Below are positions 6,308 through 17,782 of a DNA stretch of 64,000 nucleotides, piece by piece. Positions within the stretch are counted from its first letter, which is position 1; each line of letters starts with the position of its first letter. The DNA comes from Pseudobdellovibrio exovorus JSS (GTDB lineage Bacteria > Bdellovibrionota > Bdellovibrionia > Bdellovibrionales > Bdellovibrionaceae). Below the pieces are notes generated by a model. That model made no database searches and was not told where the DNA came from. It saw nothing but the letters and a program-made list of their open reading frames with translations. A program made the translations under genes and the position numbers. Where the stretch lies: assembly GCF_000348725.1 (NCBI RefSeq), contig NC_020813.1, positions 1,178,001-1,242,000 of the forward strand. Reading direction: 5' to 3'.

Positions 6308-6384
<77 letters not shown>

Positions 6385-6402
6385 ATTTTTAAGCAATAAA
6401 TT

Positions 6403-6424
6403 GGTTCTCTTCACTTCACGTTAG
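6403..6424. repeat. Terminal inverted repeat of the ISL3-type element, left
   Basis: It begins GGTTCTCTTCAC and matches the reverse complement of 7718-7739 at 15 of 22 positions. Confidence 0.6.
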
Positions 6425-6430
6425 ATAGAT

Positions 6431-7666
6431 TCAAAAAGTCTTAAATAAACAAGCACTTAGCGTTCTCAGTCGGTAATTTTTAAAGCTCTTATACCCGAAA
6501 GCCCTCCTCTGTACAAGCTTTGCGGTTCCGTTCATTCGTTCGGTGAAGGCATTTGTGTATCCTTTCTCAAAGTATCTTAAGACCTCGTGTTTCCACCTTT
6601 TCAGCGTTCTTAAAAGCCTTTGAACTTCTTCTAAATTGGAGTGACTCATTTCATAGGTGAGTTTCTCGAAAGCTCTGTAAGCCCTGCTAAAACCTTTTAT
6701 CCGATAGAACTCAAAAAGCTTTTCTTTCCAGCGATAGAGTTCATTAAGCTTTGGATGGTTTTTAAGATAGCGATCTATCTCAACCCGTAGGAAGTAATCC
6801 AAATTAGTTCGATTACATAAAAGCTTTCTTCTAGTTGAGAGTTCTTGTCTATGTCCGTGGATATCTTTTCCAGCTTTCATAATAGATGGAGTGAGGAGTC
6901 TTAGCACATGGAACTTGTCAGCTACGATCACAGTATTTGGAAAGAACTTCTTTGCAAAACTCTTGTAAGTAGAAGACATATCAATAACCACAACTTTAAC
7001 GTGTTCACGTCCTTTGAGTTCACTGATTTGCTCGGTTAATGATTTAAAATCCTTACCATGAGCCATTTCAAACATCTTTCGTTTCTTTAAGTCTGTGAAG
7101 ACTGTACAGAACTCAGTGATGCGGTTTTTACGACGGAAGAAGTGCTCATCGATACCTAAAACCTCAGGCCAATGATTTCGGCTTTTATGTTCACGAAGTT
7201 TAATCCCCACTTGTTCATAGTAGGCTTGATAGGTAAAGCCATGCGAGACATTATAGAACCTACTGACAGTGGCAAGGTCAGTCATGCGTCCGCCAGCTTG
7301 GCCAACGGCTTTTCTAAAGCGTTGTGTGGATCTGCGGCCAGGCCAGATGCCGGGTACGGGTTCTCGGAAGGTGCTTTTACAGTCTTTGCAGTAATAGCGG
7401 TGTTTATGGATTTTAAGTCAAAGGCTTATTTGACGTACTGGTTCTTCACGAACAGTAGAGATACACTTGCCAGCGCGTACGGTGTTAAGGGAACCACAGC
7501 GTAAGCAGGCTTGTTCAGAGCGTATTTTTTCAACTTCCCATAAAAATCCTTCAGGGATGGGTTTTTGGGATAAAAGTTTTAGATGATTTCCGACGAGAAA
7601 TGTATTTAGATGCTGGTTAATAAGCACACCTTGTCTCCATTGATAAAATGTTGTTGTCGCAAACAA
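6431..7666 (-). pseudogene. ISL3-family transposase, stop codon plus frameshift
   Basis: The N-terminal part (7666 down to 7418) carries the zinc-finger start (CLRCGS) and stops at an in-frame TGA (7418-7420). The same frame continues after the stop with LKIHKHRYYCKDCKSTF, the second half of the finger, and is then lost near 7340. The DDE domain (6431-7285, 284 residues) resumes in another frame with ISL3 features: LGIDEHFFRRK, VVIDMSSTYKSF, VADKFHVLRL, and the C-terminal NAFTERMNGTAKLVQRRAFGYKSF. With two lesions the protein should not be made in full. Without the lesions it would be about 400 residues, normal for the family. Confidence 0.88.
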
Positions 7667-9413: not shown

Positions 9414-10298
9414 ATGAAGCGTCGAAAAAGCACTAAACCTATTTGGAAGTCGGAACTGATCGAGGGCATCGGGAATCAAAACACTCGCCGAAACTACCAA
9501 TCAGTCCTTGATTCACTTGAGGAATACTTTCGACCATTCAAAGGCTCGGAAACAGCCCTACAGCTTATTCGTTTTGTTCGATCCGAGCAGGGCAAGGGCA
9601 TCAGTCCTCAAACAGCCAAGCAACGTTTAAGCGTTTTGAATAACATTGTTGAGTTTGCAAAAAAATCAAGCGTTCGCGGTGACAATCCAGTTGAACGAAG
9701 TTGGGTTCCAAAGGTCAAAGTCGATACAAAGCCGAAATGTCCAACCAAAACTGAGCTGAATAATTTGGATCAAGTGCTTAATGCCCAATCTGGATTTTTG
9801 GGCGCAAGGGATAATTGCATGATTGGACTCATGCGGTTTGAGGCGTTACGAGTCCATGAAGTTTCAGGACTTAACCATGAGGACATCAAATATCATCGTG
9901 ACGGCATTGAACTAAAAATCAATGGTAAGGGCGGCTATCAAACTGAAATGTGGCTTTATCCTCAATCATGTAAACTCATAAATCATTACAAAAAATATAT
10001 TCCTGCTGATGAACGACAAGGGCCATTTTTTATTCCAGCCTATCAACTTGGAAAAAGGCTTGATTCAAGATCCATACGAAAACGCTGCAATCAACTATTC
10101 AAACAAGCTGGATGGCGAAAAGGATTGTCGTGTCACTCACTTCGTCACCAAACAGCAGTGACCCTACTTGAAAACGGAGTCCCCTTGACCGAGGTCAGTA
10201 GAAAATTGCGTCACAGGTTTTTATCAAGTACATTTAGTTATTATAGTGATGTGCCGAGTTTGCGAAATCCTAAAAAAATAAACACAGCGTACAAGTAA
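9414..10298 (+). CDS. Tyrosine recombinase (integrase), complete
   Basis: The 294-residue protein has an N-terminal SAM-like core-binding domain (residues 10-95) and a catalytic domain with the full set of residues: R146 in ALRVHEVSGL, K172 in NGKGG, H241 and R244 in CHSLRHQTA, H267 in LRHRF, and nucleophile Y276 in STFSYYS. The usual LGH is LRH. It should catalyse site-specific strand exchange, probably for the island. Unusually for a tRNA-targeted integrase, it lies 3 kb from the tRNA and not directly beside it. It is transcribed divergently from the ATPase. Confidence 0.88.
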   Translation: MKRRKSTKPIWKSELIEGIGNQNTRRNYQSVLDSLEEYFRPFKGSETALQLIRFVRSEQGKGISPQTAKQRLSVLNNIVEFAKKSSVRGDNPVERSWVPKVKVDTKPKCPTKTELNNLDQVLNAQSGFLGARDNCMIGLMRFEALRVHEVSGLNHEDIKYHRDGIELKINGKGGYQTEMWLYPQSCKLINHYKKYIPADERQGPFFIPAYQLGKRLDSRSIRKRCNQLFKQAGWRKGLSCHSLRHQTAVTLLENGVPLTEVSRKLRHRFLSSTFSYYSDVPSLRNPKKINTAYK

Positions 10299-10354: not shown

Positions 10355-11116
10355 ATGGAATCAACAAAAGAAATTCTCGAGATAGTAACATATATAATTG
10401 CAATCTTAAGTGTGCCGTCGGCAACATTTTTATTTTGTGTTAAAATGTATGAGCATCTTGAAAAATATAATGCTGAAAAAATTAAATCCATGAACGAAAT
10501 TCTAAATGAAAAAGACCTTCAAGAAATCATGCATAGGATAAGTATGACTTCATCAGTACCGAATGATCTTGAAACGAAATTAAAACGATATATGTGGCTC
10601 TTAGAAGAAGAGTCAAACTTAGTAAGGCTTAAAAATGTCCCAATACATTTCAATTTCAAACAAGCACAAGAAGATATTTATTCGACTTATAAAAAATTTA
10701 GAGAAAATGTAAGAGTTCCCTTTTGGACTCCAACACCTGATGCTTGGAGGCTCAATAAAGACCATTTTGAGAAGAATTGCTCTACACAAGAGGACTGGGA
10801 CAAATCAAGTGAGAAAATTAGAAAATCTCTTGCTGATGCCTATGACGACATTAAAAAGATAAAAAAAGAAATTTCAAAAATAACAGCAAATGCAGAGTTA
10901 TCTGCGACAGAAATGATATTGAAGAGTGGGCTCTTTTATTTATTTGCCCTTGTTGTTACGGCAGCCATCCTTTGGGGATCTTTCAACTTTGGCTTTAATT
11001 ATGGGTTTATAGCGGGACATAAGCAATCAGCAGATGCAATTATCAATGAACGTGGCATGACAACTTCCCCCAAAAGTGACAACCCAGTTCCTACTTCCAA
11101 AAAGGATGAAAAGTGA
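10355..11116 (+). CDS. Membrane protein with two terminal TM segments and a central helical region
   Basis: I do not recognise a family. The 253 residues start with a hydrophobic helix (about residues 8-32), continue with a long charged, probably coiled-coil middle, and have a second hydrophobic segment near residues 190-220 (LFYLFALVVTAAILWGSFNF) before a short hydrophilic tail. The sequence is strikingly A/T-rich, as in horizontally acquired DNA. The start has GGAAGTAGGA upstream. Its stop overlaps the next start by GTGA, so it is translationally coupled to the nuclease-like gene. It could be a membrane anchor or effector of that cassette. Confidence 0.75.
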   Translation: MESTKEILEIVTYIIAILSVPSATFLFCVKMYEHLEKYNAEKIKSMNEILNEKDLQEIMHRISMTSSVPNDLETKLKRYMWLLEEESNLVRLKNVPIHFNFKQAQEDIYSTYKKFRENVRVPFWTPTPDAWRLNKDHFEKNCSTQEDWDKSSEKIRKSLADAYDDIKKIKKEISKITANAELSATEMILKSGLFYLFALVVTAAILWGSFNFGFNYGFIAGHKQSADAIINERGMTTSPKSDNPVPTSKKDEK

Positions 11117-12078
11117 TTGAAAATACATTTAACTTAGCTGAAGAAGTTGATTCTTGTATCGCTGAAAATCGGACAGAAAATGAACCAAAAATCATTGAAA
11201 AAATTATAAATAAAATTGAAGCAAGTAAAAATAAAACATTTAAATCGGAATCCAATAACGTATCGGTTTCTGTGGCAGGTGACTACTTGCATGGTCACAG
11301 ATCGCAATGTAAGTTTCACTACTGGCCTGAGGGTAAAATTAGACAAAAAGAACTTTGTGATTTAATGGTTGTCTCATGTTTAGTTGAAAATGATAAACTT
11401 TTGAGTTTAAAAGCATCATTTGTTCAAGCAAAAAAAGGTGATAAAAAAACTCGCTCTTACAAAATTGACCCAGTACAATTATATCTACTTAAAGATTTTC
11501 CAGAGATAACTCCAGTTGGCAGGGCGAATTTAGGAACGATTCCAATTAAATTTCAGAACAGCTCACACACTCTCGGAAGTTATTTATTATTCACGCCAAC
11601 ACTAGAGTTTATTTGGACAACAGCAAAAATTATAAGTTTACAAATGAGTTCATCAAAAAACCTTAAAGCCTCGGCACTTAATCCGTATTTCGCAAACTCT
11701 CTTCAGTCTTTCTTCTGGCATCCATACTGGGCAAGATATAATTTAACAACGGCTCGTCATTTGAAGAATCAATTTGATATTGAACTTTATAAAGATCAGT
11801 TGAAAGACTCATGTGAGCTAGCACTCTCCTCATCAAGGGATTTTTTTAATTATTTAATAAATCATAGACTAGGACAGGAAATTGAACATACAGTGCCAGA
11901 TGCAAAAATAATTAGACTTATAATAGATAAATCTAAAGGACTAAAAGAACTAAAGACCGTTCTCCAAAAATCTGGATTTGGAGGGGTTCCAAACGAAAAC
12001 AGCAGTGATGAAAATATCTTAGGCGATGGTATCGGTATTATTGCATCAATAACAACGATTGGAGCCAAAAATGAGTAA
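11113..12078 (+). CDS. Putative PD-(D/E)XK-like nuclease-fold protein
   Basis: The 321-residue protein begins with GTG at 11113, inside the stop of the gene before. Residues 78-108 read QKELCDLMVV...ASFVQAKK; an acidic E80, D83 and the Q105-x-K107 pair match the spacing of PD-(D/E)XK-fold nucleases that use Gln in place of Glu. This is motif-level evidence only. The C-terminal two thirds are unlike anything I know. The final 8 bases overlap the next gene. It is A/T-rich like its neighbours. The tight coupling of all three genes suggests that their products work together. Confidence 0.6.
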   Translation: MIENTFNLAEEVDSCIAENRTENEPKIIEKIINKIEASKNKTFKSESNNVSVSVAGDYLHGHRSQCKFHYWPEGKIRQKELCDLMVVSCLVENDKLLSLKASFVQAKKGDKKTRSYKIDPVQLYLLKDFPEITPVGRANLGTIPIKFQNSSHTLGSYLLFTPTLEFIWTTAKIISLQMSSSKNLKASALNPYFANSLQSFFWHPYWARYNLTTARHLKNQFDIELYKDQLKDSCELALSSSRDFFNYLINHRLGQEIEHTVPDAKIIRLIIDKSKGLKELKTVLQKSGFGGVPNENSSDENILGDGIGIIASITTIGAKNE

Positions 12079-12493
12079 TAAGGCAGTAAAAATTGAAATT
12101 GGCTTTGTCGGAAATCGCTTAATGCTTGATCTACCGATTCACGATTACACTGAACTGACAAAAAAACTCAAAGACCAAAAATCTCCTTGGGTCACTGTTG
12201 AACTAAATGACGGCGCATCGGTTGAAATTAAAGCCCAAGATGTGCAGTTTATAAAAGTCCTCCCAAAGCAGGTCCGAGAATTAAAAAAACGCAGCGGTTA
12301 CAACCTTAAAGACATTTGTAGCGTCACAGGAGAAAATTACGACGTGTATCGGCAAAAGATAAAAAAAGATGGTGTACAACTAGATTACGGCTCATATAAG
12401 CGCATTTTACTCACCCCACGAACAATAAAGAGCCTTGATCTTACCAAAGAGCAAGTAAAAAAAATAGAATCAAAATTTTCGAATAAGCGATAG
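12071..12493 (+). CDS. Small protein with beta N-terminus and HTH-like C-terminus
   Basis: ATG at 12071 is chosen over an upstream TTG at 12059; it gives 140 residues and an 8-base overlap with the nuclease-like gene. The first about 55 residues look like beta strands (KIEIGFVGNRLMLDLP, WVTVELNDGASVEI). The rest is basic and helical, with VRELKKRSGYNLKDICSVTG resembling a helix-turn-helix, followed by QVKKIESKFSNKR. It could be a regulator or DNA-binding partner of the cassette. It is the last gene of the three-gene unit; a degraded minus-strand gene follows. Confidence 0.65.
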   Translation: MSNKAVKIEIGFVGNRLMLDLPIHDYTELTKKLKDQKSPWVTVELNDGASVEIKAQDVQFIKVLPKQVRELKKRSGYNLKDICSVTGENYDVYRQKIKKDGVQLDYGSYKRILLTPRTIKSLDLTKEQVKKIESKFSNKR

Positions 12494-12669: not shown

Positions 12670-12757
12670 GGCGGTTCTCCCCTAAATCTGTAGGCCCTGC
12701 ATATTGAAGTCACGGTGTGCCAAAACACCGGCCAGAGAGCCGGAGAAGGAACACCAA

Positions 12758-13021
12758 ATGAAGAAAAGATTCACCGACGACCAGATCATTGGAGCCGTCA
12801 AAAAACTTGAAAATGGGGCAGCCCCAAAAGAACTTGCCCGCGAGATGGGAGTTACCCAGCAGACGCTTTACCACTGGAAAAAGAGATTTAAAGGTATGGA
12901 CGTCGTGGATGCCAAGCGCCTTAAGGAGCTAGAAGCTGAAAATGCTCGCTTAAAACGACTCGTAGCCGATCAAGCTCTGGACATCGTCATGCTCAAGGAT
13001 GTGAATTCAAAAAAGTGGTAA
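12758..13021 (+). CDS. IS3-family OrfA (DNA-binding part of transposase)
   Basis: ATG at 12758 follows GAGAAGGAAC and gives 87 residues starting MKKRFTDDQIIGAVK. Helix-turn-helix (LAREMGVTQQTLYHWKKRFKG) and then a leucine-zipper-like helix (LKELEAENARLKRLVADQAL) are typical. It overlaps orfB and carries the slippery heptamer at its end. Confidence 0.9.
   Translation: MKKRFTDDQIIGAVKKLENGAAPKELAREMGVTQQTLYHWKKRFKGMDVVDAKRLKELEAENARLKRLVADQALDIVMLKDVNSKKW
13009..13015 (+). promoter_or_regulatory. Programmed -1 frameshift site (A AAA AAG)
   Basis: The heptamer is in the correct phase of orfA (TCA AAA AAG TGG TAA) just before its stop, and orfB is in the -1 frame. Slippage here would yield the OrfAB transposase, as known for IS3 elements. 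Confidence 0.8.
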
Positions 13022-13842
13022 GGCCCAAAGACCGACGAACGGAGGCTCTTTATCTGGTCGATAAGTACAAGACCACAAAGGCCCGATGCTGTCGCCTTTT
13101 GGGCCTTAGTATCTCGACACTATCCTACGAACCAGCGCCGAATGGGGATGCTCCAGTTCGTGATAAACTCATTGCACTCGCGGGAGAGAATAAGCGTTTT
13201 GGCCATCCAAGACTGTTTGTTCTTCTAAAGAAAGAGATGCCGGAAGTAAATCACAAGCGGTCTCACCGTATTTACAAGCAATCCGATTTACAACTTCAGA
13301 GAAGAAAACGCAAAAAACTTGGCACCCATCCGCGAATGCCACCAACCAGAGCCAGCGAGGCTGGCCAAGTCTGGGCCGTTGATTTTATGTTCGACTATCT
13401 GGAGAGTGGTCGAAAACTCAAAACGCTGACCATCATTGACGAGTATTCGAAAATATCTCCTGGAATTTTAGTGGAGCATTCAATCCGCGGAGTTGATGTG
13501 ACGCAGTTTTTGGATCATTTGGCCGCCGGAGTCTACCCAAAGATTATCCGAACAGATCAAGGAACAGAGTTTACTTCGCGAGCGATGCTAGACTGGGCTT
13601 ACCGTCACAATATCAGATTGGAGTTCACTCGGGTCAGAAAACCAAATCAAGTTATTGAGGCATTCAACTCAAGGGTGCGAGACGAGTGTCTTAACGAGAA
13701 CGTCTTTTTCTCCCTTAGTGACGCCAGGGACAAGATCGACGATTGGCACTGGAGATATAATAACTTCAATCCACACTCAGCACTGGGAATGAAATCACCG
13801 ATAGAGTTTGCAATGGAAAGAGAAACTATGTTAGCAAGTTAA
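13015..13842 (+). CDS. IS3-family OrfB (integrase-core transposase)
   Basis: The 275-residue frame contains an HTH_21-like N-terminal region (RFGHPRLFVLLKKE) and an rve integrase core. DDE residues are visible: D in WAVDFMFD, D in IRTDQGTEF, and E in QVIEAFNSRVRDECLNE. The ending NNFNPHSALGMKSPIEFA is the usual C terminus. In most relatives the Glu motif reads QNGxxESFN; QVIEAFN here is a mild deviation. It is probably made only as an OrfAB fusion by frameshifting at 13009-13015; the GTG at 13015 has no Shine-Dalgarno. Confidence 0.9.
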   Translation: MVRPKDRRTEALYLVDKYKTTKARCCRLLGLSISTLSYEPAPNGDAPVRDKLIALAGENKRFGHPRLFVLLKKEMPEVNHKRSHRIYKQSDLQLQRRKRKKLGTHPRMPPTRASEAGQVWAVDFMFDYLESGRKLKTLTIIDEYSKISPGILVEHSIRGVDVTQFLDHLAAGVYPKIIRTDQGTEFTSRAMLDWAYRHNIRLEFTRVRKPNQVIEAFNSRVRDECLNENVFFSLSDARDKIDDWHWRYNNFNPHSALGMKSPIEFAMERETMLAS

Positions 13843-13891
13843 CGCCACCTGACTCAAAGCCTCTGACTCACAGAATCTTGGGAGAACCGCC

Positions 13892-14012: not shown

Positions 14013-14240
14013 GTGGAACTTTACAGAAATACTGGCGGGGACTCAGGAATTGTGGGGTATGAAATTGGAACGGACTCTATCGTAGTTAAGTTTAGAGATG
14101 GGGCAGTATATTTATATGACTATACTCATACCGGAGTTGCTGATGTTGAACACATGAAGCAACTGGCTTTGAGTGGATCTGGTCTGAATAGCTTTATTAG
14201 CAGAGCTGTACGCAAAAGATTTGCTAGAAAAATTCGATAG
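14013..14240 (+). CDS. KTSC-domain-like protein
   Basis: The 75-residue protein has the shape of the KTSC family: SGIVGYEIGTDSIVVKFRDGAVYLYDYT (a beta hairpin with the G-x-VY-x-Y core) and then a helix with LALSGSGLNSFISRAVRKRF, matching the family's AxSxGxxxNxxI pattern. The family is named for residues in lysyl-tRNA synthetase fusions, but the activity of stand-alone members is not known. The GTG start follows a very strong AAGGAGGG, only 3-4 bases away. It lies in the island, convergent with the PD-(D/E)XK gene. Confidence 0.7.
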   Translation: MELYRNTGGDSGIVGYEIGTDSIVVKFRDGAVYLYDYTHTGVADVEHMKQLALSGSGLNSFISRAVRKRFARKIR

Positions 14241-14248
14241 TATGCTTA

Positions 14249-15280
14249 CTAAAGGGCGTTAAGATCCTTCTCGATTAGCTGATAACGTTCTTTAGTAGAT
14301 TCCCCCATGTAAAAATCTAAAAGATCTTGTTTGTTTAGCTTTCCATCTTTCAAAAATTTTGAAAAATACTCCTGATTAAAGTTCATAAGTAAAATACTTT
14401 TCTCAATTTGCTTTAATATAGCTTTGTTGTTTTCTATATTTGTGAGAACTAAGTTTCTAATACTAGTAATTTCGTTTAGGTCTTTAATGATTTTGGATAT
14501 CAAGAGTGACAATATAGATGCATCTATATCTGTGCTTCTGGCATTTAAAGCTATATCCCTAGCTAAGGAATAGGCGATTGCAAGATTGGTATAGTTACCC
14601 TTTTGAGAGTCAATTATCGCAATAAAACCCACATTTGGTATAAATCCAACATTTTCACAAACCTTTAATATACTACTATCAACCAATGAGGCGTCGAATA
14701 CAATAATCGCAACTTGGGAGTCTCTATTGGCTTGAGCTTCCAGAAGCTGACTCCAAGCTGTATCGGCTCTTCGAGCAAAAGGGTCGCGGGTACCAATTTC
14801 TCCGAGTCGAACACTTTTGTCAAATTTGCATTCAATTACAATCTTCTGGTCTGGCTTTCCATCTATTTCGCAAACAATATCTCCCGTTTTATTTTTAGCG
14901 ATAATACCTGCTGAGTTTCCAGTTAAAAAAACAGAGTCCTTTAAGTTTCTTTCTTTAAAGTGATCTTTAAGGAAATCGGCTATTTCATCTTCTGCTAGAG
15001 TCCCTTTTACAGTTGTTTTGTAAAAAATCTCTTTTTTCATATCGAAGATCATTTTCAAGCTTTCTAGTTCTGTTCCAAGGTGATTGGCTGTTTTGGACAA
15101 GAAACTAGAAAGGCGATCCTCCATCATTGCGAGTACGCCAATATAAAGTGCTCGAAGAAGTTTTTCACTTCTTTCCTCAGACGGAAGAGCATCGAAATAA
15201 TTAAATACTACATCATTCTCTATTTCGAATTCTTGAATTTCAACTCGTTTAAGTTTTTGATTCAGCTTGATAGTATTCAT
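14249..15280 (-). CDS. PD-(D/E)XK nuclease-fold protein
   Basis: The 343-residue protein has a central restriction-endonuclease-like core: GD at residues 133-134 (TGDIVCEIDG), then VIECKF with E150 and K152, matching the (D/E)-x-K catalytic pair. Flanking regions are helical (residues 35-110 and 240-343), the latter perhaps a coiled coil. It probably cuts or binds DNA or RNA. It is third in a minus-strand operon after the OLD-type nuclease and the WYL-like gene, with a 78-base gap that holds a long stem-loop. A/T-rich. Start supported by GGGAGATAT before the ATG. It is not assigned to a named restriction system. Confidence 0.72.
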   Translation of the reverse strand: MNTIKLNQKLKRVEIQEFEIENDVVFNYFDALPSEERSEKLLRALYIGVLAMMEDRLSSFLSKTANHLGTELESLKMIFDMKKEIFYKTTVKGTLAEDEIADFLKDHFKERNLKDSVFLTGNSAGIIAKNKTGDIVCEIDGKPDQKIVIECKFDKSVRLGEIGTRDPFARRADTAWSQLLEAQANRDSQVAIIVFDASLVDSSILKVCENVGFIPNVGFIAIIDSQKGNYTNLAIAYSLARDIALNARSTDIDASILSLLISKIIKDLNEITSIRNLVLTNIENNKAILKQIEKSILLMNFNQEYFSKFLKDGKLNKQDLLDFYMGESTKERYQLIEKDLNAL

Positions 15281-15320
15281 ATATCTCCCAATGCTTGTAA
15301 AAAGGAGTAACTTAGCTGAT

Positions 15321-15377
15321 TATTTACTGCGTGACAACGAGTGTTAGTAAATTCGTTGTCAGAGTTCACAGTAAATA
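15321..15377 (-). other. Nested inverted repeat / long stem-loop between operon genes
   Basis: An inner 9-bp pair TGACAACGA (15332-15340) / TCGTTGTCA (15353-15361) is enclosed by an outer 9-bp pair TATTTACTG (15321-15329) / CAGTAAATA (15369-15377). In RNA this gives a bulged two-tier hairpin overlapping the stop codon of the WYL-like gene (15359-15361). No T run follows, so it is not a classical terminator. It could set the expression ratio, be processed, or be a small mobile repeat. Confidence 0.55.
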
Positions 15378-15649
15378 TGCGACATCGCACTATCTCCGCG
15401 AACATACTCCGGTCGAGGTCCATCAAAGTGTTTTTCTAGTAAGCTTATATCTGAAGCCTTAGAAAGAGTAAAAAGTTTCATATCCTTTGGGTCAGAAGAT
15501 GAGTAGCCGTCCACTTGGTAGGCTCTAAGAGATTCATTTCCAGCGGTTGAGATGCCATAACAGTGAGGTTCGACGATACGGACTCCTCCATTATATTTAA
15601 ACTCGATCATTTTTTTATTATTTATAGCATCTACGATTATTTGATTCAT
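15359..15649 (-). CDS. WYL-domain-like protein
   Basis: The 96-residue protein resembles the ligand-sensing core of WYL domains: AINNKKMIEFKYNGGVRIVEPHCYG, then LRAYQVDGYSS, and a final strand with LFTLSKASDISLL. WYL domains occur as regulators in many defence loci and sense nucleic acid or nucleotide ligands; here there is no attached HTH, so it may act as a sensor or modulator protein. It lies 20 bases after the OLD-type gene on the same strand. The literal W-Y-L triad is not evident, so the assignment is moderate. Confidence 0.6.
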   Translation of the reverse strand: MNQIIVDAINNKKMIEFKYNGGVRIVEPHCYGISTAGNESLRAYQVDGYSSSDPKDMKLFTLSKASDISLLEKHFDGPRPEYVRGDSAMSHIYCEL

Positions 15650-15669
15650 AAGTTTCCTTTTAATATTGT

Positions 15670-17544
15670 TTATGGGGTAAAGATAAATCTAGGGTCTTTT
15701 TCTAAATTATTTTTTTCAATCCAAGACTTTAAATGATCTTCATATTTATCACCACACTTTGTATTTTGTATTTCTCCGGATAACTCTTTTATTAATGTTT
15801 CAATTGCATTTTTAAAAGGAGTATTCGAGAGCATTAAGACAGCATCGAGAGGTTTTCCTTCGCCACTTGATGGAATATCATTTTCTACTTCAAAATTAGG
15901 AACTGAAACTCGGTGAATTACTTTTATATTTTCATTAGTAGTTAATTTTGTTTCCTCTGCTATTTGTTTATTGATTACATATGCGGGGTTTTTCTTTTTT
16001 CCAGACTTCGTTTTCGGCGAATCCGTATCGTGTAAAATAGAGTGTGGTATTTTGAATTGTCTAAGTATTCTTAGAATGAGTGGAATAGTGCTTTTGCCTC
16101 CGGCTCGAATGACCGTTCTCCCTTTTTTAGGTGTTGTTGATAAGACTGTTGTGTCTATAAGTTCTTGGAAGAGAGCATATTCAGTATCCCCTTCAACTAC
16201 AAAAACAGTATTGGCAAAAAAAATTTCACTGAAGTTCGAGTCAAATTTTAGTAATGCACTAAGTTGATTTTTTTCTGATTCATTAAAGTTAGCAGCTGTA
16301 GATCTAAATGTGTGAGAAGTTGAGGAACGCTTTTCTACGCGCACAATGGTAGTATGGTCTTTTGTTGGATCAATGAAGGCGGGGTGGTGCGTTGTCATCA
16401 TAACTTGCCATCCTGAATCTTGTGATAGCTTGTATAGCTGATCTTTGGCAGCTCTTACAGCGGAAGGGTGTAGAGCTATCTCCGGTTCATCTATCATGAG
16501 GACATATCCTCTATTGAAGGTCTCATCTGTTGTGTTTTCCAGAACTGAAACTTTTGATGTAAGGGCTGTAATTTTCTTTTTATCTGTTGAAGTAAGATTT
16601 TCCTTGTTCTGCAAGACACTTAATTGTCTCTTGGCTTCAGATAGATCGTGGGATCTTTTCTCTTTTTGGTTGTTTGTATCTAATTTCGATTGAAGGGCAG
16701 AACGAACTTTAAGTAATGACCAAAAAAGGGTTCGCTGAGCGCCAGTGCCTTGACTATTAATTTTAAAAAATCGGTCCTCTTCTTTTATTAGAATATCGCT
16801 AATTCTAGTTAAGTATGAGTCCAAATCGAAAAAATCTTTATTAGGTGTAATCGTTACAGATACGTTGGAGTCGTTAAAAACATTTGTGAATTGTCCATCT
16901 ATTTCGTTTTGAATTTCTTTTAGGGTGTCTGCATAACCTATTAGTTCTTGATCCATTGTGTCTTTAAAAGCAGAAAGAGCTTTGCTTAAATTCGAAGTGT
17001 CATCAGCAATTTTATTTTTTAGATCTTTTATGATTGGCTCTAGAATAAGTTTAATTAGAGAACTTTTTTCTTTGTCTGGTTGGTCGAGAGCGCCTATTCT
17101 TAAAGGTTTGGGTAGTCTGCTGGAAAAAACAGAATCTAATCCAGATGCTTTTTCTTCTGTAGGAAAACTATTGGTTTCCTTATCATAAGTCGTTCTTTCA
17201 CAGGATAGGGTTTTTCGTGACCATGTCCACCTTGACCTTATTATGGGAGTGCCTGGATATTCTGCATAATCATTTATGAGCCATTTATCTGCAATATTAG
17301 GAGTCTTTTCTGCTACTTCTATCCATAATTCGACATAGGGATCATCTTCTGCGCCTTTGTGAATTTTATCTGCGGGGATAGAAGAACTTTTTATGGCAAG
17401 CTCATAACAGTCGAGGACCGTGCTTTTGCCGCAATTGTTTTGTCCGACAAGACAAACTAAATCTGAAATTTCTATGGATGTTGGGTTTCTTCCAAAAGGG
17501 CCAATGTTAGAAATAACAAGTCTTTTAATTGTTGAATTGCTCAT
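15670..17544 (-). CDS. OLD-family ATP-dependent nuclease (ATPase + TOPRIM)
   Basis: The 624-residue protein starts with an ABC/SMC-like ATPase: LVISNIGPFGRN, Walker A GQNNCGKST (residues 34-42), and Walker B VLMIDEPEIALHP in the middle after a charged coiled-coil insertion. The C-terminal part has the TOPRIM marks FVVEGDTEYALFQ and the DTDSPKT acidic pair. This is the layout of OLD nucleases, including GajA of Gabija, but no UvrD-like GajB gene lies beside it. It should bind ATP and nick or cleave DNA. It is the first gene of a three-gene operon with its own promoter. A defence role is inferred from family and location. Confidence 0.85.
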   Translation of the reverse strand: MSNSTIKRLVISNIGPFGRNPTSIEISDLVCLVGQNNCGKSTVLDCYELAIKSSSIPADKIHKGAEDDPYVELWIEVAEKTPNIADKWLINDYAEYPGTPIIRSRWTWSRKTLSCERTTYDKETNSFPTEEKASGLDSVFSSRLPKPLRIGALDQPDKEKSSLIKLILEPIIKDLKNKIADDTSNLSKALSAFKDTMDQELIGYADTLKEIQNEIDGQFTNVFNDSNVSVTITPNKDFFDLDSYLTRISDILIKEEDRFFKINSQGTGAQRTLFWSLLKVRSALQSKLDTNNQKEKRSHDLSEAKRQLSVLQNKENLTSTDKKKITALTSKVSVLENTTDETFNRGYVLMIDEPEIALHPSAVRAAKDQLYKLSQDSGWQVMMTTHHPAFIDPTKDHTTIVRVEKRSSTSHTFRSTAANFNESEKNQLSALLKFDSNFSEIFFANTVFVVEGDTEYALFQELIDTTVLSTTPKKGRTVIRAGGKSTIPLILRILRQFKIPHSILHDTDSPKTKSGKKKNPAYVINKQIAEETKLTTNENIKVIHRVSVPNFEVENDIPSSGEGKPLDAVLMLSNTPFKNAIETLIKELSGEIQNTKCGDKYEDHLKSWIEKNNLEKDPRFIFTP

Positions 17545-17575
17545 TTACATCCTTATGCTACTCATATATAGCGAG

Positions 17576-17604
17576 CTTATAACCAATTATTTATTTAGTT
17601 TCAA
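17576..17604 (-). promoter_or_regulatory. Promoter of the OLD-type nuclease operon
   Basis: On the minus strand TTGAAA (17604-17599) and TATAAG (17581-17576) are spaced by exactly 17 bases, 32 bases before the ATG, which itself is preceded by AAGGAT. It is the best sigma-70-like match in the island. Confidence 0.65.
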
Positions 17605-17614
17605 GAGGTTAATC

Positions 17615-17782
17615 TCATATCTCAATCCTATCCTCAATCTGCTGCTCCTGAACTATCTTCTGCTGAATTACAGCCCACAAGTACAGGTAGTTCTCTGTAG
17701 TGGCGATATCTGTATGACCAAGGACATACTTAGCTAAAAAGTGATGTCCTTCAGTCTGTGCAATTAAATTTGTGCAATAAGC
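17615..17782 (-). pseudogene. C-terminal fragment of a tyrosine recombinase
   Basis: An open minus-strand stretch of 55 codons reads ...GHHFLAKYVLGHTDIATTENYLYLWAV... and ends with a stop at 17615-17617. LGHTDIATTENY is the LGHxxxxTTxxY box with the nucleophile Tyr of phage-type integrases. No N-terminal or Arg/His-containing part remains, because an upstream stop interrupts the frame. It marks the right edge of the island next to core genes. Confidence 0.75.

Follow-up and report, generated by a model that had tools for sequence, protein, structure and literature searches.

Probable modular anti-phage cassette with an OLD-type nuclease, a WYL-fold protein and a PD-(D/E)XK protein in Pseudobdellovibrio exovorus JSS

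The bacterium Pseudobdellovibrio exovorus JSS carries, within a 64,000-nucleotide (nt) stretch of its genome (NC_020813.1, positions 1,178,001 to 1,242,000; hereafter the window, in whose own numbering positions are given), a minus-strand operon that codes for an OLD-type nuclease, a small WYL-fold protein and a PD-(D/E)XK protein, designated here as PD. An earlier note on this DNA had proposed that the three genes constitute a new anti-phage system. Our analysis makes it highly likely that the locus is a modular anti-phage cassette that arrived by horizontal transfer, with OLD-WYL-PD as one of its combinations: across related loci, an effector core occurs together with a strongly constrained PD and with small beta proteins of the WYL and/or KTSC type, and the core swaps freely while PD stays. 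The genes of the cassette and its putative promoter are as follows.

15670..17544, minus strand: OLD-type ABC ATPase and TOPRIM nuclease, 624 amino acids (aa), the defence core (profiles, motifs and a match to PDB 6p74)
15359..15649, minus strand: stand-alone WYL-fold protein without a helix-turn-helix (HTH), 96 aa (weak profile and AlphaFold model)
14249..15280, minus strand: PD-(D/E)XK protein with flanking helices, 343 aa, the last gene of the cassette (motifs, profiles and fold)
14013..14240, plus strand: KTSC protein, 75 aa, convergent with the PD gene, with a GTG start and a strong Shine-Dalgarno motif, AAGGAGG, just upstream
17576..17604, minus strand: putative promoter TTGAAA-17 nt-TATAAG, read from the sequence by consensus only

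The minus-strand genes follow each other in the order OLD, WYL and PD, with spacers of 20 nt (OLD/WYL) and 78 nt (WYL/PD). Coordinates, strand and both gaps are those that the earlier note had given for its three open reading frames (ORFs), and the cassette is A/T-rich, as claimed there: the G+C content of its genes is 0.35-0.39, below the 0.416 of the whole window. The promoter fared less well. The hexamers TTGAAA and TATAAG, 17 nt apart at 17604-17576, are present and agree with the consensus at 10 of 12 positions, but the region is A/T-rich and has many promoter-like matches: 18 were counted and 11.9 are expected by chance (standard deviation 3.7), so that they are only somewhat enriched.

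Judged by its profiles and motifs, the 624-aa protein belongs to the OLD family nucleases, in which an ABC ATPase is fused to a TOPRIM domain, in agreement with its first annotation as an ATPase-TOPRIM protein. It matches Pfam AAA_15 at 3.7e-19, OLD-like_TOPRIM at 3.7e-16 and the PADLOC Old model at 3.7e-75, and the motifs are intact: Walker A (GQNNCGKST, with K40), Walker B (LMIDEPE), the H-loop, and EGDTE and HDTD of TOPRIM. The best solved relative by sequence is 6p74, the class 1 OLD of T. scotoductus (E 3e-11), and the fused ABC ATPase/TOPRIM with intact motifs is common to the window protein and class 1 OLDs (P2 Old and 6p74). However, class 1 OLD genes have been described as standalone (PMC12796447), and related OLDs without these partners do occur, whereas the window OLD sits in a recurrent operon with WYL and PD-(D/E)XK. 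Gabija (GajA/GajB, class 2 OLD) likewise has an OLD-type ATPase-TOPRIM protein, but the GajA models match far less well than the PADLOC Old model, and the scanned neighbours include no recognisable UvrD-like helicase, which upholds the distinction from Gabija drawn in the earlier note. Specifically, the ORFs downstream of the cassette gave no UvrD/PcrA/Rep-like helicase when scanned with Pfam, and Gabija was rejected on this ground; directly upstream lie a recombinase remnant and then a 412-aa ORF with homologues in the same genus. PARIS (OLD class 4), in which ATPase and TOPRIM are encoded by separate genes, was rejected because the window has one fused 624-aa ORF. Likewise, a retron (OLD plus reverse transcriptase, RT) was rejected, as no RT was present among the neighbouring ORFs scanned and Rfam gave only the tRNA.

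The 96-aa protein is only weakly matched by sequence profiles (PADLOC WYL, 0.0016), and its WYL-like character, proposed earlier, became apparent from structure prediction. Its AlphaFold model (predicted local distance difference test score, pLDDT, 91; predicted template-modelling score 0.83) consists of one helix and a barrel, and the top 17 PDB matches are all WYL proteins (PafBC, BrxR and DriD; probability 1.0, TM ~0.6), so that a WYL Sm/SH3-like beta barrel is predicted. One of these proteins, DriD, has been solved with bound single-stranded DNA, according to the PDB titles. The window protein resembles the BrxR/CapW regulators in its WYL fold and its position near defence genes; however, BrxR-type proteins have an HTH and further domains, whereas the window protein is a bare barrel that lacks an N-terminal winged HTH. 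Homologues with 44-63% identity are present in 15 PD loci. Relatives also occur in other settings, none of them with PD in our WYL scan of viral contigs, and thus WYL is not specific to the cassette.

As for PD, five residues (E97, D134, E150, K152 and Q178) are invariant in 83/83 sequences compared, and Pfam PDDEXK_15 matches 16 of 49 PD relatives, with a best value of 3.4e-7. The PD model (pLDDT 75) had its best VIA matches in Bax1, Can2 and McrC (Z 9-9.6), with VC1899 and restriction enzymes also among the matches (Z up to 9.6), while plain Foldseek returned weak matches only and the PD profile had no match among PDB sequences. The invariant residues, fold matches and PDDEXK_15 together indicate the catalytic D-E-x-K in an alpha-beta core, and hence that the PD-(D/E)XK assignment made from E150/K152 was sound; cleavage itself is predicted. 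PD was not found in phage records. The gene is under strong purifying selection, with dN/dS values of 0.02-0.10 overall and 0.02-0.07 in most close pairs, and it evolves more slowly than the OLD and AAA_13 cores and about as slowly as HerA. Such constraint, unlike that expected of a phage-facing sensor, together with the last position of PD in the operon, would suit a safety or reset factor that shields the host or restrains toxic cores, for example by clearing DNA structures that wrongly trigger them. We consider this improbable, given that related cores exist without PD.

A scan of genomes yielded the best 80 of 129 PD relatives, a sample chosen by similarity to PD; genes were called by a simple ORF method, corrected with tblastn and profile hits, and then subjected to clustering and family searches, with exceptional loci re-examined. 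These 80 relatives are full-length, 61-70% identical and mostly from Bacteroidota. A tblastn search of plasmids added one relative from Paracoccus, which is 59% identical over its whole length and lies behind SIR2, HerA and KTSC, and a contig from a viral collection shows the same SIR2-HerA-KTSC-PD order. Among the host and 39 relatives, the PD gene was found in the host only (1/40 genomes), and since the closest PD relatives are mostly in Bacteroidota, horizontal acquisition of the cassette is very probable. No clean empty site emerged when the genus was searched for the flanking genes; the host genome is complete (2,657,893 bp).

Immediately upstream of PD, the 82 non-window loci have different cores: SIR2-HerA in 34, OLD in 17, and AAA_13/PDC-S06 proteins of the PrrC/RloC kind, some truncated, in 15, followed by Lamassu-like pairs (5), an SMC-like 838-aa protein (3), PDC-S46 (2) and OLD with a UG39 RT (2). 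An AbiA-like gene (L087), AlbA-KTSC (L016), a KTSC scar (L067) and an unidentified gene (L089) occur once each. Most cores contain an ATPase of the ABC/SMC/HerA type, and KTSC and/or WYL is encoded in the operon in about 71 of the 78 PD loci with enough upstream sequence. PD follows the preceding gene closely, with a median spacer of 2 nt and no more than 30 nt in 75/81 cases. The three genes of the window are neighbours elsewhere too, as the earlier note had suggested should be examined: two of the 17 OLD-core loci have WYL-OLD-PD (L081) and WYL-KTSC-OLD-PD (L040). This recurrence makes it the least probable of all the explanations considered that an ordinary class-1-like OLD gene has acquired WYL and PD as chance neighbours in a gene island, even though OLDs of similar identity stand without WYL and PD on plasmids and the gene order of the window is unusual.

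PD cassettes often lie within restriction-modification (R-M) operons, either after Eco57I-type genes or as HsdM-HsdS ... PD ... GmrSD and HsdR. R-M operons are the known setting of PrrC, and the PrrC/RloC anticodon nucleases resemble the PD loci in having an effector in or beside an R-M operon, as with the AAA_13 cores before PD. The PD loci differ in adding PD-(D/E)XK and WYL/KTSC partners, neither of which, to our knowledge, forms part of the classical description of PrrC/RloC.

Several loci deserve mention in their own right. In L063:6148-11029, inside a type I R-M operon, and in L077:6350-11029, OLD is followed by a UG39-type RT and then PD, an arrangement that is reminiscent of OLD-type retrons. 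L018:5787-7634 encodes a fusion of Schlafen AlbA_2, HATPase and a C-terminal KTSC, followed by more KTSC genes and a defence core; the AlbA_2-HATPase-KTSC fusion is also present in L016, L020, L022 and L070. In L038, L060, L083, L029 and L020, a pair of ~820-aa and 330-aa proteins with weak LmuB/PtuA similarity directly precedes PD and is possibly an undescribed Lamassu-like system. Scars of lost cores stand before PD in L067:9950-9991 (the last 14 residues of KTSC) and L061:3058-3276 (~70 residues of AAA_13).

The distribution of core types on a maximum-likelihood PD tree was nearly random, with 42 changes compared with a mean of 45.1 for shuffled labels, and we therefore rejected a fixed three-gene system. 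For AAA_13, the 15 rows required 15 changes; some clustering, such as related genomes would lead one to expect, was seen for SIR2-HerA and, to a lesser degree, for OLD. The three-gene unit of the earlier note accordingly does not hold: the same PD ends many unrelated cores, similar OLDs occur without PD or WYL, and the KTSC gene had been overlooked. Exchange is visible at the DNA level between L020 (Lamassu-like) and L037 (SIR2-HerA), whose PD genes are 89-95% identical over most of the gene, with identity falling to ~50% at both ends. In the remaining pairs with different cores, identity falls off upstream in the same way; the exception is L016/L037, a pair that has the KTSC gene in common as well. 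A few pairs are alike downstream of PD too. That identity ends at the PD gene boundaries, and that a closely related SIR2-HerA-KTSC site lacks PD, could be explained by a selfish or homing-like nuclease gene hitch-hiking at the ends of defence operons. We regard this as very improbable, however, since in nearly all loci PD is tightly coupled to the genes before it on one strand, and since it is confined to defence cores and strongly constrained over large distances.

SIR2-HerA-KTSC also occurs as a recurrent three-gene unit without PD, on plasmids of several classes (L127-L131), and in one of these, from Pseudoalteromonas (L131), a SLATT protein is encoded after KTSC. Since such units exist with and without PD, KTSC appears to be a constant third member of SIR2-HerA, and PD seems to be a companion that is dispensable yet under strong selection. 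These systems are similar to the window cassette in having KTSC in the operon, with the same PD last in 34 loci, but their core is SIR2 and HerA, with PD optional, whereas that of the window is OLD. A replacement of SIR2 by an endoDNase next to HerA and KTSC has been mentioned as an unpublished observation, which is not the arrangement described here (PMC9503650).

That PD is paired with unrelated cores, that cores occur without it, and that two cores may be stacked before one PD (L017, L038 and L076) would also be understandable if PD were a second defence nuclease in its own right, linked to the cores by nothing more than the shared operon, PD and cores acting separately on different phages as in stacked islands. 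This possibility is a serious one, although the odds are against it: PD almost always has a core directly upstream (the exceptions being the KTSC scar in L067 and the unidentified gene in L089), and it overlaps or abuts that core.

The 75-aa KTSC protein matches the Pfam KTSC family at only 0.085 on its own. It is, however, ~45-53% identical to KTSC proteins encoded ahead of the cores in other PD loci and is of the same subfamily as those before OLD and AAA_13 cores, and its gene is part of the cassette. In the window, this gene has the opposite orientation and runs towards the PD gene. KTSC has been described as a nucleic-acid-binding domain (PMC9503650; PMC7824862).

How could one PD serve so many cores? 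In the modular cassette that we favour, PD would be a working metal-dependent DNase whose substrate, foreign or damaged DNA, is cut or processed; the resulting ends or strands would be read by the DNA-responsive ATPase core, OLD in the window; the small WYL/KTSC proteins would help this reading as nucleic-acid-binding adaptors or gates; and the licensed core would then degrade DNA and halt the infection. ABC/SMC and HerA ATPases react to DNA ends, to DNA structures or to the nucleotide state, and the nearest folds of PD (McrC, Bax1 and Can2) work with a partner NTPase or ligand. We give this whole explanation, a modular cassette with a PD-licensed core, a probability of roughly 0.5. Its division of labour, in which PD cuts or trims DNA, WYL/KTSC adapt and the core responds, is proposed tentatively, the mechanism being inferred. 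Licensing by PD may be the simplest role common to all cores, but we hold it with less than even confidence, and the evidence speaks almost as strongly for an independent second nuclease or for a restraint on the core.

Several observations weigh against this explanation. Two cores, the AbiA-like one of L087 and AlbA-KTSC of L016, have no obvious SMC/ABC/HerA protein. Five plasmid OLDs without PD form one clade with the window OLD and five PD-linked OLDs, and among the SIR2-HerA-KTSC systems without PD, one HerA is 79% identical to the PD-linked HerA of Paracoccus. The PD model is of moderate confidence. Finally, the OLD-WYL-PD order and the inverted KTSC gene are absent from the other PD loci compared, and the 78-nt gap before PD is among the longest; the window copy may therefore be rearranged and is perhaps not fully working.

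The individual cores are already known, whereas we found no name or description of the PD family or of the cassette in the open-licence literature, and PADLOC and NCBIfam models gave no convincing match to WYL or PD. Catalogues of defence systems generally go by the core genes, yet here one strongly conserved nuclease family with small beta-barrel partners stands last in operons with at least seven unrelated cores, and it seems to persist while the cores come and go. If PD contributes to function, such systems have perhaps been annotated and assayed with a component missing, and the action that they share through PD would give direct access to the question of how unrelated effectors are switched on or held back. 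A more speculative and doubtful extension is that PD accompanies DNA-responsive abortive-infection effectors universally, as one conserved nuclease gated by small KTSC/WYL proteins. If so, it would license SIR2-HerA, OLD, RloC/PrrC-like, Lamassu-like and RT-based effectors, the killing module being swapped on a plug-in platform.

The cassette is surrounded by traces of mobile elements, listed below; the families of the recombinase remnant and the 284-aa ORF were judged from their sequences only.

12670-13891: IS3-type element with two ORFs and 22-nt imperfect inverted repeats, ~120 nt from the KTSC gene
9414-10298, plus strand: whole integrase gene
~17615-17760, minus strand: what remains of a tyrosine recombinase, its C-terminal part (LGHTDIATTENYLYL), adjoining the OLD promoter on the upstream side
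6308-7285: tRNA-Met (at 6308) and, directly after it, a transposase-like 284-aa ORF

The IS3-type element may explain the rearrangement of the cassette. The earlier note had placed the cassette in a tRNA-linked island; tRNA-Met is indeed present, but neither a second, att-like copy of its 3' end nor long direct repeats were found in the window, so that the link is weak and an island bounded by the tRNA is not supported. Between the integrase gene and the IS3-type element, three coupled, A/T-rich ORFs of 253, 321 and 144 aa (10355-12493, plus strand; G+C 0.345) had no convincing match in Pfam, PADLOC, NCBIfam or PHROGs and are possibly another operon of the island.

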